DNA from: Saprospiraceae bacterium
GTDB taxonomy: Bacteria; Bacteroidota; Bacteroidia; Chitinophagales; Saprospiraceae
Direction: 5' to 3'
Assembly: GCA_028280415.1 (NCBI GenBank)
Contig: JANQLV010000027.1
Span: 1 to 64,000 of the forward strand
DNA length: 64,000 nucleotides
Below are positions 15,906-39,866 of the stretch, piece after piece (the stretch's first letter is position 1; each line of letters opens with the position of its first letter). The position numbers and the translations under genes are program-made. The notes under the pieces are model-generated. The model had not been told where the DNA came from, did no database searches, and saw only the letters and a program-made list of their open reading frames with translations.

Positions 15906-15942
15906 TGTAGTATACAGAAGAATACTTTTAAGCTTCGGGAAA

Positions 15943-16020
15943 CAGGTATTAGATTTTGGGTTATTGGGTTTTAGGTTTTTCTGGATACCCTAATACCTCA
16001 TGCCTAATACCTGCCCTACC
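15943..16020. repeat. Heptad-phased palindromic intergenic element
   Basis: Between two convergent genes. The left half has purine dinucleotides (GG, GA, GG, GG, AG) at 15945, 15952, 15959, 15966 and 15973, and the right half has CC at 15989, 15996, 16003 and 16010, each spaced exactly 7 bp. The ends CAGGTATTAG and CTAATACCTG are inverted copies, so the transcript can fold into a long imperfect hairpin. It may serve as a bidirectional terminator for the DUF1080 and patatin genes. The same design occurs at 40947-41000. Confidence 0.6.
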
Positions 16021-16103
16021 CAACAATAAATAGCGATATAGTATTCAATTTGCCTGTAAACATTAACCCAAACTCGGAGTGACTCTTAATTAGTACTTCT
16101 TCA

Positions 16104-19137: not shown

Positions 19138-21825
19138 TCAGCTTATTCTTTTTTTATAAAAATAATAAATACCCAAAAATAGGATTAGGCTAATACTCAA
19201 CAACCGGGCCATATTACAAGAAGAGTTGGTAGCTTTGGTATTTCCATAAAAAGCAAAAGCGGCCCAGGATTTTGGGCCCAGATCGCCATTGAGTGCTATA
19301 AATTTCTTTTGTGCTTTTTGTAAGGCTACATCTTTAGAAAAACCATCTCGCAATTTATCATAAAACAATTCCATTATTTCCCTGGAATCTCTATCCTGGA
19401 TTTCCCACATTGTAGAAATCACGCTTTGCGCTCCTGCATGGATGAGGCCCCGGGAAATACTGATGGCCCCCTCCCCTTTCTCAATTTTTCCAACTCCGGT
19501 TTTGCATGCACTGAGTACGACCAGTTCAGAAGGAATACGCATATTGTATAATTGATTTAAACCTAGTTTAAAATTAGAACCATCATTCGAAAAAACGATA
19601 TAGGACTTCATAGGATTCTGTACATCCGCATCCGCATGGCTCGCTATATGTATATATTGGAAACTGGAATCGTTTTTAGTAAAATGTTCAACCGTTGCTA
19701 AATCATCCTGAAACAAAGTAGAAGATTGAAAATAAGTCGCCATAATTTTTACCTCATCCTTATTTCTTATATTCCTAAATCGAAGTCTGGAAGAATCCGT
19801 ACTGCTAAACATAGGGGCTACTCCCAAATATTCCCGATCATAGTCAATAGCTTCACGTTGATTAATCGTATGCGCAGTTCCCACTGAAAACCAATAATCA
19901 ATACTAAAGTCTTTGATCAGATACGAATAAGTATCAAATTTTGTAATTTCTGCTTGCTCAACCTTTTTACGTAGCAATACATTAAAAGGGACTATCCACA
20001 ATTCTCTATCCGGAATAATTACCAGCCGATCAACTGAACCGAGTTTTTTATCAAAAGGTTTAATGAGTTTCTGATATAAAGCATGAGCAGTAGTCGTATA
20101 AGCCAGCATATCTTCCTCATAAACATAATTCCTCAAATCATTAATACGATTCCTTAATATTTCGTCTATCTTGATAGCGTGAACCATAATTTCTTTTTCA
20201 TCGGGGCAGAGCAAGAAAGCAAAGATGTATTCATCACCAACAAAGTACTCCAGCAAGGCTTGATTCTGATTCAATAGCTTTTCTCTGATTGTAGCTACAG
20301 AAATATCCGTATTCAGGTTTAATAAAGGATTTTTCGATCGAATAGAATCGAGTAAAAGGTAATACTCTTCTTCCAATTTGTACTTCTTTAATCTGGCACT
20401 ATTCAATGTTTCCGAATCAGCCTTTGCAATTTTATCACTAAGCAGCAATAGCTGATTTTGCAATTGTTTTATTTTTATTACTTCGTCAGTGTTTAAGCCT
20501 TCAGATATTTCTATCCGATAATTATTCAGCGCATTTTGCAAATTCAATGCCCTGCTCAATTCTGAAAGGCGAAATGCTTCCAAGTAGTTTTGCTCTTCGT
20601 AAGCCAGAGTAATTGCTTGCTCATATAATGTATAAGCATTGGAAAGTAAAACTTGCTTGTCTAGCTCACTCGTCAGGAAGTCCTGTCGAATTTCTTCTAC
20701 CAAATCAAGCGTCAGGCTATTCGTTTCTTTTAATGCCGCCCGATATGCTGGTCGTTCTCTTAAAAGAAACAAGACCTTGGATTTTCGCATTAAGGTTTCG
20801 TATAAATCCACAGGCAGGTCAATATTTTTAAGCTCCGGATTCTCACTGAATTTCTCAAAATTCTTTTTCCTGAATTCGGGAACCAGATTAGCTAATGCCT
20901 TTTGATAAAACAATAATGCATCATCATACTCTTCTTTCTGAAGACAAACATCGCCAAGCTTATTATATGAATCCGTATAATCATAATAAAATGTTTTATT
21001 ATCATACAGTTTCATAAGAATATTCAGTCCTTTAGACAATAATTCTTTTGCTTTTTCGGCTTGCCCTTTACCCAAATAGATCATTGCTTTGGCTTTAAAT
21101 AAATCAGCCTGACGTATTGATTCATCATCTATAATACTTAGCAGTTTTTTGTTATTGAGATAATATAAGGCGCTGTCCGCCTGATTAAGATCAGTAAGCA
21201 ATTTTGCGTAATTCAAATAGGCCGATATCAATAAAGCCGTATTCTCAGGCTCGGATTTAAGATAATCTGCATAACACTTTTTTGCAGCTTTTACCTCTCC
21301 CATTCCCGTATATATTTTAGCTTTATAAGGTAAGGTATTATAGGTTGCAAAAGACCCCATACTATCCAATTTCATAAAATAATATAATGCTTTTTTATAA
21401 TTATGATACCAATTATATTCAATAACACCCATATTAGTATAAAGGGATCTCAACCTTTCTTCATAGCCATTTTTCTCTGCTATTCTAATTAATCTTGGAA
21501 GCTTTTCTCTGGCTCTGGTTTTAAAACCTAAAACATCATCGCAATAAAATTCCAGCACCTCTTTTTCAAAAAGTGTTTTTTCATCAATATAATTACGTTC
21601 TTCGCCTTGAGGGTTTATTAACATCTCCAAAGAATCAATACATCGCCTTAGCGCTACAAAATTATACTTTTTTAAGGCCGATTGGCTTTTATCTAATAGT
21701 TGTTGGATCAAAGTATCGGGATTATTGGAGGGCAAATCTGGATTTTGCGCCGGTGCATTTATTTGTAGAAAATTAACAAATAAGAAAAGAAGCAGTACAG
21801 GGGGATACTGTAATTGGTTATTCAT
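19138..21825 (-). CDS. TPR-CHAT caspase-like protease with C-terminal membrane helix
   Basis: An 895-residue protein. It has a hydrophobic signal-like N-terminus (residues 8-25), TPR repeats at about 40-330, a long coiled-coil-rich segment (about 400-480), and a CHAT domain at about 560-860. Catalytic His730 lies in IHIASHAD and Cys774 in VLSACKTG, followed by KGEGAISISRGLIHAGAQSV. Unlike the other CHAT protein in this window, it ends with a transmembrane helix (about 874-889, LLSISLILFLGIYYF) and a basic tail. An N-terminal signal plus a C-terminal helix would place the whole CHAT domain outside the cytoplasm (topology to be tested). Its start has a TAnnTTTG box directly upstream. Confidence 0.92.
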   Translation of the reverse strand: MNNQLQYPPVLLLFLFVNFLQINAPAQNPDLPSNNPDTLIQQLLDKSQSALKKYNFVALRRCIDSLEMLINPQGEERNYIDEKTLFEKEVLEFYCDDVLGFKTRAREKLPRLIRIAEKNGYEERLRSLYTNMGVIEYNWYHNYKKALYYFMKLDSMGSFATYNTLPYKAKIYTGMGEVKAAKKCYADYLKSEPENTALLISAYLNYAKLLTDLNQADSALYYLNNKKLLSIIDDESIRQADLFKAKAMIYLGKGQAEKAKELLSKGLNILMKLYDNKTFYYDYTDSYNKLGDVCLQKEEYDDALLFYQKALANLVPEFRKKNFEKFSENPELKNIDLPVDLYETLMRKSKVLFLLRERPAYRAALKETNSLTLDLVEEIRQDFLTSELDKQVLLSNAYTLYEQAITLAYEEQNYLEAFRLSELSRALNLQNALNNYRIEISEGLNTDEVIKIKQLQNQLLLLSDKIAKADSETLNSARLKKYKLEEEYYLLLDSIRSKNPLLNLNTDISVATIREKLLNQNQALLEYFVGDEYIFAFLLCPDEKEIMVHAIKIDEILRNRINDLRNYVYEEDMLAYTTTAHALYQKLIKPFDKKLGSVDRLVIIPDRELWIVPFNVLLRKKVEQAEITKFDTYSYLIKDFSIDYWFSVGTAHTINQREAIDYDREYLGVAPMFSSTDSSRLRFRNIRNKDEVKIMATYFQSSTLFQDDLATVEHFTKNDSSFQYIHIASHADADVQNPMKSYIVFSNDGSNFKLGLNQLYNMRIPSELVVLSACKTGVGKIEKGEGAISISRGLIHAGAQSVISTMWEIQDRDSREIMELFYDKLRDGFSKDVALQKAQKKFIALNGDLGPKSWAAFAFYGNTKATNSSCNMARLLSISLILFLGIYYFYKKRIS

Positions 21826-21922: not shown

Positions 21923-22822
21923 TTATCCTTTTTTATCATCAATTTTTGCAGCGGTTAAACTACTACTACCAGAGCCAGGATCGGTCGTCTGCTCATGGGG
22001 AACTATATTGCGCAGGATGATACATCTAGTTCTTCCGCTATCATCAATCCAGACAAACTTCGCTTTTATCAAATCTCCTCCACTTAAGTTCGTCAACATG
22101 TTATCTATTTCATTCATTGTGACCACTGCAAAGCCCCCCAAAGGAGATATTAGAGCATCGCTAATATCTGAATAAGCAATTAGTGTTGCGGTACTGAGTT
22201 CCGGATTACACTTATAGATACTTATTTCCTGTACATCCCACTCGTTCGTATTAACGATAAATTGTTCGAACATTTTCCCGGACCAGTCACAATAACGTCC
22301 ATCCGGGCAAAGGCAAAGTTCTTCTAAATGTTCTATTCCAAATAAATCAGCCATATAGGTGATATTTCTTGCATCAATCAACTCTAATTGATTATCACTA
22401 ATATCGTGAATATCACACTCATCCTCCCCCGGAATAGGGCATTCTTCCGGTAATTCAAAGCTTGCAGTCATCTGCTCATTATTAATACTCAAAAGTTCTT
22501 TTTGAAGTTGAATCTCTTCAACTAATCGGGAGGTTTTCAAAGCCTGGATAATTGCCTGCGTAAAAGTAGTAGTTCTGTAGTTTTCATCAATATTCGCATA
22601 TTTTTTTAGAAAACCACGTTCCTCGTCTACTTTAGCCCGACGGACAATTTTTTTGTAATAAAAATCATTATATCCCGGCTCGAAATCGTCCTGAGGTTTT
22701 TGCTGAATAAGATTTAGTTTCACGAACCGATAAATCATATAGAGGATAACCAGTATCCCTATTATCCCTCCTATGATTGCAAGGTCCTTAAAGACGGTTA
22801 ATAATTCTTGAATTGTGTTCAT
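21923..22822 (-). CDS. Single-pass membrane protein of unknown function, CHAT-locus neighbour
   Basis: A 299-residue protein with one N-terminal transmembrane helix (about 12-34, IIGGIIGILVILYMIYRF). A basic/charged stalk with helical segments follows (about 60-120), then a C-terminal domain rich in Asp/Glu/Cys (CDIHD, CLCPDGRYCDWSGK) and a beta-rich end (AKFVWIDDSGRTRCIILRN). The paired Cys residues might be disulfides or a metal site. I do not recognise the family. It is encoded upstream of the CHAT gene in the same direction but cut off from it by a strong terminator, so it is a neighbour rather than an operon member. It might be a substrate or partner of the CHAT protein (inference). Confidence 0.7.
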   Translation of the reverse strand: MNTIQELLTVFKDLAIIGGIIGILVILYMIYRFVKLNLIQQKPQDDFEPGYNDFYYKKIVRRAKVDEERGFLKKYANIDENYRTTTFTQAIIQALKTSRLVEEIQLQKELLSINNEQMTASFELPEECPIPGEDECDIHDISDNQLELIDARNITYMADLFGIEHLEELCLCPDGRYCDWSGKMFEQFIVNTNEWDVQEISIYKCNPELSTATLIAYSDISDALISPLGGFAVVTMNEIDNMLTNLSGGDLIKAKFVWIDDSGRTRCIILRNIVPHEQTTDPGSGSSSLTAAKIDDKKG

Positions 22823-23173
22823 TGCAATTTGTTTTTCATTTTAGAAATAGAGTTAATATACTGCTTGTTGGAGTGCAAGCTTTTTTTCTTTATACTTTAC
22901 TATCTTAAAATGTTAGGAAAAAATTTTATTTTTTCAATTTTTAAGACATTTATAACTCAAAACAACTAAAATTAACAATTTTTAAAACAACTCAATTGAA
23001 TATTTAATTCAGAAATACGGTTATCGCATTGCTACTAGCTAATTGTACTGATAAAACAATTTAGGGACAATGATCACTAGAGATTAAAAAATTGTTTTGG
23101 TCAACTTTCGATTTTCGTAACTCGTTTTTCGCTATTCGACTTTCGAGCTTCGAAAACCGAATAACGAAAATCA
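22823..23173. other. Intergenic region with AT-rich leader and heptad element
   Basis: 351 bp between two minus-strand genes. It holds an AT-rich block before the 299-residue gene, a small plus-strand hairpin GCTTG/CAAGC (22863-22880) followed by seven T without an upstream plus-strand gene, and at its far end the heptad-phased element at 23107-23171. No coding sequence is apparent. Confidence 0.55.
23107..23171. repeat. Degenerate heptad array, CG every 7 bp
   Basis: Nine CG dinucleotides occur at 23109, 23116, 23123, 23130, 23137, 23144, 23151, 23158 and 23165, exactly 7 bp apart. The first units read TTTCG-like, and from the middle the units become CGAA-like, so the array is also an imperfect palindrome (TTTTCGCTATTCG against CGAATAACGAAAA). 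It ends just past the stop of the minus-strand isomerase gene, where a terminator is expected. Confidence 0.7.
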
Positions 23174-24082
23174 TTACACATCCACTTCGCGATAAGCTTT
23201 GATTACTGCAAGTTCACCTTCTTTTCCATTTTTAAAATTTCCGTGTTCCATACCCATTATTCCCCGGAATCCTTTTTCATGAATAAATTTAAAAACATTT
23301 TTATAATTTATCTCTCCGGTAGTTGGCTCTTTTCGACCGGGATTATCACCAATTTGAAAATAAGCGATTTCATCCCAACTCGTTTCGATATTCGGAATCA
23401 GATTCCCTTCCTGAATTTGTTGATGGTAAATATCAAAGAGGATTTTACACGAGGGGCTGTCAACCGCTTTACAGATTGCATAGGCTTGTGCGGATCTGGT
23501 CAAAAAGAGTCCGGGATGATCTCTAAAATTAAGCGGCTCTAATACCATCGTTAATTGATGGGGTTCTAAAATATCGCAAGCTCTTTTTAAAGCTTCTATC
23601 ACATTAGCTGTTTGGTAGCCCATATCTTTTCTCAAATCCAGGTGCCCGGGAACAACTGTCATCCATTTCGCATTCGTTCTTTTAGCTACTTCAAGCGATT
23701 TTTTAATGTAATCCAAAAATTCTATCCGCTTCGCTTCGTCTCCACTAGCCAGGTTAGGTTCGTGCCAATATATCTTGTGTGCAACAAAAACGCCCATCTC
23801 AATTCCCAGTTTGGCCATTGTTGCGCCCATTTTTTCCTGTAAAGCGATATCGCGATTCGGCATACCATTATCTTCGAAAGCCTGAAAGCCCTGATCTGCC
23901 ATAAATTTCAACTGATCAATCGGATCATCGCCGGCATGATGTTTAAACATACCAAGATGTGGCGCAAACTTCATATTAAATTTTGCGCCCGAAGCATTTT
24001 TAGTATTATTAAATGAAGGACTGGACAAAGGGATAGCAGCCAGTGTTATGCTGCCATTTTTAATAAATGATCTGCGTTCCAT
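23174..24082 (-). CDS. Exported TIM-barrel isomerase, hydroxypyruvate isomerase-like
   Basis: A 302-residue protein with a twin-arginine-like start MERRSFIKNG and hydrophobic stretch (1-25). The rest is an AP-endonuclease-2/xylose-isomerase-like TIM barrel: FMADQGFQAFEDNGMPNRD, WMTVVPGHLD, LTMVLEPLNFRDHPG (metal Glu), CKILFDIYHQQIQEGNLI (metal Asp/His), YFQIGDNPGRKEPTTGE (metal Asp) and IMGMEHGN (metal Glu). This pattern is that of the hydroxypyruvate isomerase (Hyi) family. Exported members in Bacteroidota are often found with GMC and DUF1080 genes in 3-keto-sugar pathways; here those lie about 7 kb away, so the link is weak. Confidence 0.87.
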   Translation of the reverse strand: MERRSFIKNGSITLAAIPLSSPSFNNTKNASGAKFNMKFAPHLGMFKHHAGDDPIDQLKFMADQGFQAFEDNGMPNRDIALQEKMGATMAKLGIEMGVFVAHKIYWHEPNLASGDEAKRIEFLDYIKKSLEVAKRTNAKWMTVVPGHLDLRKDMGYQTANVIEALKRACDILEPHQLTMVLEPLNFRDHPGLFLTRSAQAYAICKAVDSPSCKILFDIYHQQIQEGNLIPNIETSWDEIAYFQIGDNPGRKEPTTGEINYKNVFKFIHEKGFRGIMGMEHGNFKNGKEGELAVIKAYREVDV

Positions 24083-39810: not shown

Positions 39811-39866
39811 CGAGTATCGAGTATCGAGTATCGAGTATCGAGTATCGAGTATCGAGTATCGAGTAT
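39811..39866. repeat. Eight perfect tandem copies of CGAGTAT
   Basis: Exactly 8 copies of the heptamer CGAGTAT, placed in the 126-bp gap between two divergent start codons (39791 minus, 39918 plus). Such short perfect tandem repeats change copy number by slippage, so the spacing of the two promoters could vary between cells. It has no spacer sequences and is not a CRISPR array. Confidence 0.95.

Follow-up and report, generated by a model that had tools for sequence, protein, structure and literature searches.

A dispersed miniature inverted-repeat element carries a CG-anchored heptad array in a Saprospiraceae genome

What sort of DNA places nine CG dinucleotides exactly 7 bp apart just beyond the end of a gene? 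In the window (the whole stretch that we analyzed, 64,000 nucleotides from a Saprospiraceae bacterium), CG starts at positions 23109, 23116, 23123, 23130, 23137, 23144, 23151, 23158, and 23165, with a lag of 7 throughout. The initial annotation described this array as nine CG at exact 7-bp steps in noncoding DNA, and both the CG start positions and the map of genes and open reading frames (ORFs) bear it out. The site is intergenic, in a 351-bp gap between genes at 21923–22822 (minus strand) and 23174–24082 (minus strand). A coding origin of the grid is ruled out: no ORF of 60 or more amino acids spans 23043–23172, and a lag of 7 is not divisible by 3. As in a heptameric simple-sequence repeat, the array at 23109–23165 has a 7-nt unit with some positions fixed. 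GG is absent from 23104–23173, so this is not a G-run array that might form quadruplexes (the Xanthomonas or Nostoc type).

Over lags of 3 to 21, no CG chain elsewhere in the window is as long as the one at 23109–23165. Four CG on a 7-bp grid are matched 11 times in the window (six starts in this array and five in another array at 39811), against 0.16 expected, which excludes a chance origin. In 1.264 Mb of the same genome, 10 chains of five or more CG have a lag of 7, and ten first-order Markov copies contain none. Other lags gave almost no such chains (none at lags 4–6 or 8–13, one each at lags 3 and 15, and four at lag 14). As the initial annotation recognized, the grid would mean little if shuffled intergenic DNA had an equal lag-7 signal or if the genome held no second copy. 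Instead, the intergenic DNA of 464 kb has 65, 54, and 59 pairs of CG at lags 7, 14, and 21, versus 36.8, 33.6, and 31.4 in 20 Markov copies, and many further loci match the two models described below. If all bases are counted, 7 is the top lag in this genome's intergenic DNA (z = 5.8 versus other lags). In other groups, from much smaller samples, the all-base z at lag 7 was 3.6 for G022 and 0.5–2.8 for the eight others sampled.

When this region was searched against the genome, the 29 resulting rows fell into two distinct blocks: the array itself and the sequence that precedes it on the left. From the left block we built a sequence model of the head of the element (model R1) using eight copies, which were first found by a query that included the array; the window copy is one of the eight. 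In the 7.1-Mb genome, the head model matches at least 20 places at E ≤ 0.001 (150 of 3373 first-look candidates were scored). Among 38 relatives, it has a single marginal match (E = 0.009). The copies share a layout: a head (TGTACTGACAAAACAA..AGGGACAATGATCACTAGAAATTAAAAAATCATTCGG), then a variable region of CG heptads, and then a right end like TTAGTACA. This right end could be placed in 15 copies, which are 80–159 bp long. The element is thus short, multi-copy, and, as judged at 23043–23172, free of coding ORFs, as expected of a miniature inverted-repeat transposable element (MITE).

Across the copies, the element also carries the footprint of transposition. Its ends are imperfect 27-bp terminal inverted repeats: the start of the consensus head matches the reverse complement of the consensus tail at 20 of 27 letters (p = 0.002 versus shuffled tails; this is a result for the family, as the window copy has no tail). 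And it is flanked by a 6-bp target duplication, NNTARN. Among 14 copies (the 15 with a right end, minus L095), 59 of 84 flank letters agree, compared to 43.3 ± 3.6 for re-paired flanks, and none of 20,000 re-pairings scored as high. Widths of 3, 4, 5, and 7 gave p = 0.11, 0.63, 0.69, and 0.06. T-A is found at flank positions 3–4 in 12–14 of the 14 copies. Given the inverted ends and the target duplication, we classify the element as an orphan MITE that carries an array of CG-anchored heptads (unit roughly TCGANNN) in its interior. Both the element and the grid are well supported.

Searches for two transposase families did not find a partner transposase. The rve family (PF00665) has no match in the genome (an assembly of 81 contigs), and DDE_Tnp_1 has a single match, whose 3.5-kb surroundings lack a pair of TGTACT/AGTACA strings. 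We considered an IS481-like carrier (the target of IS481 is NCTAGN) and rejected it because no rve transposase was found in the genome.

The window copy begins after a left flank, GCTAAT (23038–23043), that fits the target motif derived from the 14 other copies. The conserved head follows at 23044–23100 on the plus strand (the left terminal inverted repeat takes up its first 27 bp; the match to R1 runs from 23043 to 23099 with E = 6.8e-17). Next comes the array at 23104–23173, whose units shift from NNNTTCG to CGAANNN. The match to the array extends to 1 bp from the stop codon (23174–23176) of the adjacent gene, which encodes a protein with a xylose-isomerase-like TIM barrel (23174–24082, minus strand; PF01261, E = 9.5e-36). 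This copy has an intact head and no tail, and no right-hand target duplication matching the left flank is visible. On the minus strand, the array is predicted to fold into a hairpin with its 5' arm at 23150–23170 and its 3' arm at 23126–23146 (−26 kcal/mol, z = −4.4, with 0 of 200 shuffles as stable); folding the plus strand as DNA gave z = −3.1. The array had initially been described as a palindrome, and these two arms do pair, but the first three CG fall outside of the stem on the minus strand, and the grid therefore extends beyond the hairpin. The suggestion that this is the degenerate state of a heptamer array such as the one at 39811 was right about the type of array, but this array is not simply free-standing: it makes up the inside of a MITE that is present in many copies.

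We compared the PF01261 gene to eight orthologues, and by eye, all of them end one to five residues later. The closest orthologue (from G017, 76% identical) also has an inverted repeat after its stop codon, with different letters (also by eye). Because the head is intact, the tail is missing, and the closest orthologue has its own inverted repeat after the stop, the window copy may combine the head of a MITE with a gene-end hairpin that is older. We found no known RNA family at this site: Rfam gave only two sub-threshold matches nearby. One sub-threshold match, at 22829–22890 (plus strand), is to FopS, a family of Bacteroidetes sRNAs (26.4 bits, where the gathering score is 56; E = 0.18). The array's second neighbor on the left is a gene for a TPR-CHAT protein (19138–21825, minus strand; Pfam CHAT, E = 7.5e-51).

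Which features of the array are kept from copy to copy? For grid, anchor, and folding, we used 18 elements found by their heads (the at least 20 places without L085, which has no array, and L100, whose head is partial). In these elements, 76 CG pairs are at lag 7, compared to 10.7 ± 3.1 in 200 shuffles, the largest of which had 23. There are also 57 pairs at lag 14 and 48 at lag 21, and just 0 to 7 at the other lags from 4 to 20. Within each element, most CGs keep to one phase (98 of 121 overall). Across 73 grid positions, the information content of the anchor's T, C, G, and A is 1.06, 1.46, 1.36, and 1.02 bits, versus 0.22, 0.30, and 0.41 bits for the other three phases. The values for C and G are raised because the CG itself sets the phase of the grid; those for T and A are not. 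For comparison, we examined the edge units of direct (CGTTATT)n arrays from other genomes. In 162 such units, the mismatches in order of position were C 49, G 27, T 22, T 39, A 38, T 58, and T 32. On average, C and G were kept no better than the other positions, so CG has no special protection there.

To describe the palindromic form, we built a hairpin structure model from six arrays. In the same genome it matches at least 34 non-overlapping loci at E ≤ 0.01, merged by hand from 56 rows (115 rows at E ≤ 10). As 150 of 2310 first-look candidates were scored for this model, and 150 of 3373 for the head model, both copy numbers are lower bounds. At least three CG share one 7-bp phase in 31 of the 34 loci, and at least five do in 21. 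Since these loci were found with a hairpin model, their palindromy is partly due to selection by the search. Outside of this genome, the model matched 2 of 38 relatives at E ≤ 0.01 and, with stricter filters, 8 of 394 other genomes of the class at E ≤ 0.001.

A head or tail was detected at 12 of the 34 loci, and the other 22 seem to stand alone. (The first sorting was 11 and 23; we then placed C55:14892 with the MITEs because the head model matches it.) Of the 22 stand-alone loci, 17 come no more than 20 bp after a stop codon, a count that is the same under either sorting, while only 9.1% of random placements do so (p = 3e-14). Without the locus that seeded the model, it is 16 of 21. Gene ends are approximate here because the genes in these counts are simple ORFs of at least 90 amino acids. 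Two loci (C22:25569 and C45:108138) look by eye as if they bear tails; they are among the 22 and not among the 17. The stand-alone loci include 8 between convergent genes, 12 between genes in the same direction, and 2 between divergent genes. Their position just after stop codons suggests that the near-stop arrays could serve as gene-end hairpins.

Compensatory changes also point to pairing. We hand-picked 11 palindromes of equal length from the palindromic arrays, and 7 of their 17 pairs change on both sides. Their covariation score was 0.249, compared to 0.121 ± 0.022 for shuffles, none of which (0 of 500) reached it, and to 0.05–0.09 for pairings slid out of register; the CG columns are nearly invariant. 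Even in these 11, 10% of the cells are unpaired, and there are two pairs that do not form in 5 and 4, respectively, of the 11 palindromes. And in the 18 head-found elements, the array regions fold little better than random (mean z = −0.97, with 2 of 18 below −2); the hairpin is thus no general feature of the MITE. Nor do the near-stop arrays resemble classical intrinsic terminators, as most lack a run of T: on a gene strand, 4 of 17 near-stop loci have at least five T in the 8 bases that follow the stem, and at the window copy, on the strand of its gene, 1 base in 8 is T. Of 11 near-stop loci between same-direction genes, 6 fold better on the gene strand than on the opposite one. Fewer than three CG are on the grid in 2 of the 17 near-stop loci. 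Overall, the grid is more constant than the hairpin, given the weak folding of the head-found arrays, the unpaired cells, the few T runs, and the strand preference of 6 in 11.

A search for GG chains uncovered a second family of dispersed palindromes, with GG in the left arm and CC in the right arm, mostly every 7 bp. A profile search placed one copy in the window, at 15907–16068, between convergent genes. In this family, 43 GG pairs are at lag 7 (13 and 23 at lags 6 and 8), and so are 61 CC pairs (22 and 24 at lags 6 and 8). We found 19 loci in 1.264 Mb. Of these, 13 are between convergent genes (as are 97 of 675 gaps; p = 1e-7), 6 are between same-direction genes, and none are between divergent genes. 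The mean z of folding is −1.7, with 5 of 19 below −2. With its 7-bp step and its bias towards gene ends, the second family means that two differently anchored families share both of these features.

Over-represented intergenic heptamers in bacteria are known and little studied, and according to the account of Xanthomonas (PMC4692102, as excerpted), their cause and role are unsettled. There, (GGGANTN)n arrays are scattered and mostly intergenic, have fixed and free positions, and lie nearer to the preceding ORF (28 nt away on average). Each Xanthomonas genome has 70–75 pairs of sites in inverted orientation that could form stem-loops, so inverted heptamer arrays are already in print. The authors of that account did not identify a role, and they quote slippage as a hypothesis. 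Our arrays are similar in having a 7-nt unit with fixed and free positions, in being scattered, in their proximity to the preceding ORF, and in their inverted pairs. However, the anchor in Xanthomonas is a run of G that could form a quadruplex, rather than TCGA, the phylum is different, and the excerpted account describes no MITE carrier.

BrickBuilt, a MITE of Porphyromonas gingivalis with 19 copies, has a leader, an internal tandem array, and a tail, with small inverted ends (PMC4596501, in part). Some copies lack the leader or the tail; the copies are intergenic, with long stem-loops predicted, and matches are confined to the species. By description, BrickBuilt resembles our element in its leader/array/tail layout, in its copies with missing ends, and in being intergenic. 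It is set apart, again by description, by a 23-nt unit and a length of 84–991 nt, as opposed to 7 nt and 80–159 bp. REPs are extragenic palindromes found mostly at convergent or same-direction genes, often less than 20 bp from the 3' end in convergent pairs (PMC3733652). They bear a GTAG or CGTC tag, and the GTAG class has a RAYT partner, whereas we did not find an intact RAYT here. Finally, TAACTGA repeats are 7-nt intergenic arrays in Beggiatoaceae, Cyanobacteria, and Bacteroidetes, in the last sometimes alongside other heptamers (PMC4679880, as excerpted). Unlike our arrays, these are direct repeats of one fixed unit and, in the best-studied genome, are mostly just upstream of start codons. 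Our element joins features of Xanthomonas heptamers, BrickBuilt, and REPs and adds a CG anchor that is kept. Among the literature matches listed, from a search with subscription papers mostly outside its scope, we found no CG-anchored palindromic heptad MITE. Two of four exact heptamer strings did occur in seven papers, none of which, judging from title and start of abstract, deals with such repeats.

We propose, with a probability of about 0.6, that the window array belongs to a tail-less copy of a MITE whose interior of CG heptads was born by slippage, in many cases became or stayed inverted, and acts as a gene-end hairpin where it lies just after a gene. Slippage, of a kind common in bacteria, would first have made a heptamer repeat. 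Many arrays would then have turned or stayed inverted, so that a strand could fold back on itself. Just after a gene, such an array probably forms a hairpin at the 3' end that affects the end or the stability of the transcript, more like a REP than a classical terminator. The array probably reached new intergenic sites as cargo of the MITE, moved by a transposase that we did not find in the assembly. We also considered that slippage might be the whole story. The array would then be a decayed, functionless tandem heptamer, with the palindrome as a by-product of inverted duplication. This has a real but clearly smaller chance of being right. Heptamer arrays are certainly widespread: the 23-mer of (CGTTATT)x3 occurs in at least 119 stretches, spread over many phyla (many with Bacteroidota titles, and also Pseudidiomarina, Fibrobacter, Chloroflexi, Cyanobacteria, and others), and among the matches listed, 116 of 119 run in a single direction within the grid-extended array. 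Uniform direct arrays occur in this genome as well, the head-found arrays fold barely above random, and slippage is the hypothesis that the excerpted Xanthomonas account reports for heptamers (PMC4692102). Against slippage alone are the chosen palindromes, whose units are unlike one another and still agree between the two arms, an anchor of T-C-G-A that is held while the other phases drift, and the concentration of stand-alone loci just after stop codons.

If the grid rather than its letters is what is conserved, then anchored heptads (CG, or GG and CC) would build the gene-end hairpins and a dedicated process would renew them, perhaps in several phyla. That process might be a heptad-reading protein, a copying or repair reaction that steps by 7 nt, or templated repeat addition. 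We think this rather doubtful. A platform with many sites for a protein that reads the anchor every 7 bp (three units make two turns of B-DNA) strikes us as about as doubtful. It would explain how the anchor is conserved without conservation of the unit, and why a second family with another anchor has mostly the same step. However, two anchors would require two readers, and a hairpin is a simpler explanation for the inverted halves. A REP element mobilized by a RAYT transposase is very improbable, even though these are multi-copy extragenic palindromes beside the 3' ends of genes, as REPs are (PMC3733652, in part). The genome's one match to Y1_Tnp has an in-frame stop and is flanked by inverted repeats without CG heptads. 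GTAG and CGTC are absent from the 43-column consensus of six aligned arrays (a consensus of the arrays themselves), and the mobile element of this genome is bounded by 27-bp ends and duplicates 6 bp of its target. (The Y1_Tnp match, to PF01797, is L327 at G000:C49:20689-20955, and a perfect 17-bp inverted repeat precedes it.)

Because one genome holds many related copies, the grid, the anchor, and the pairing can be told apart, within the carrier that moved them. And with so many copies and a second anchor family, slippage, selection for a hairpin, and protein binding are separable by comparing strains.

Other heptamer arrays in these genomes take different forms. The array at 39811–39866, found with Tandem Repeats Finder, is a perfect, uniform direct array of eight CGAGTAT units between divergent genes; it is not palindromic and has no MITE head. 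Long direct arrays with 9–15 CG and units of CGAAAGT, CGACTTT, or CGAGGTT are found at L204 (G000:C33:106028), L203 (G000:C63:99402), and L145 and L146 (G000:C12:70544 and 98217). One of these alternates CGAGGTT and CGTTTTT as a 14-mer and then becomes TGAGGTT units. In G024, heptads such as CGATATT and CGATTAA occur inside longer repeated blocks at four loci (L177, L179, L181, and L185), with both orientations present.
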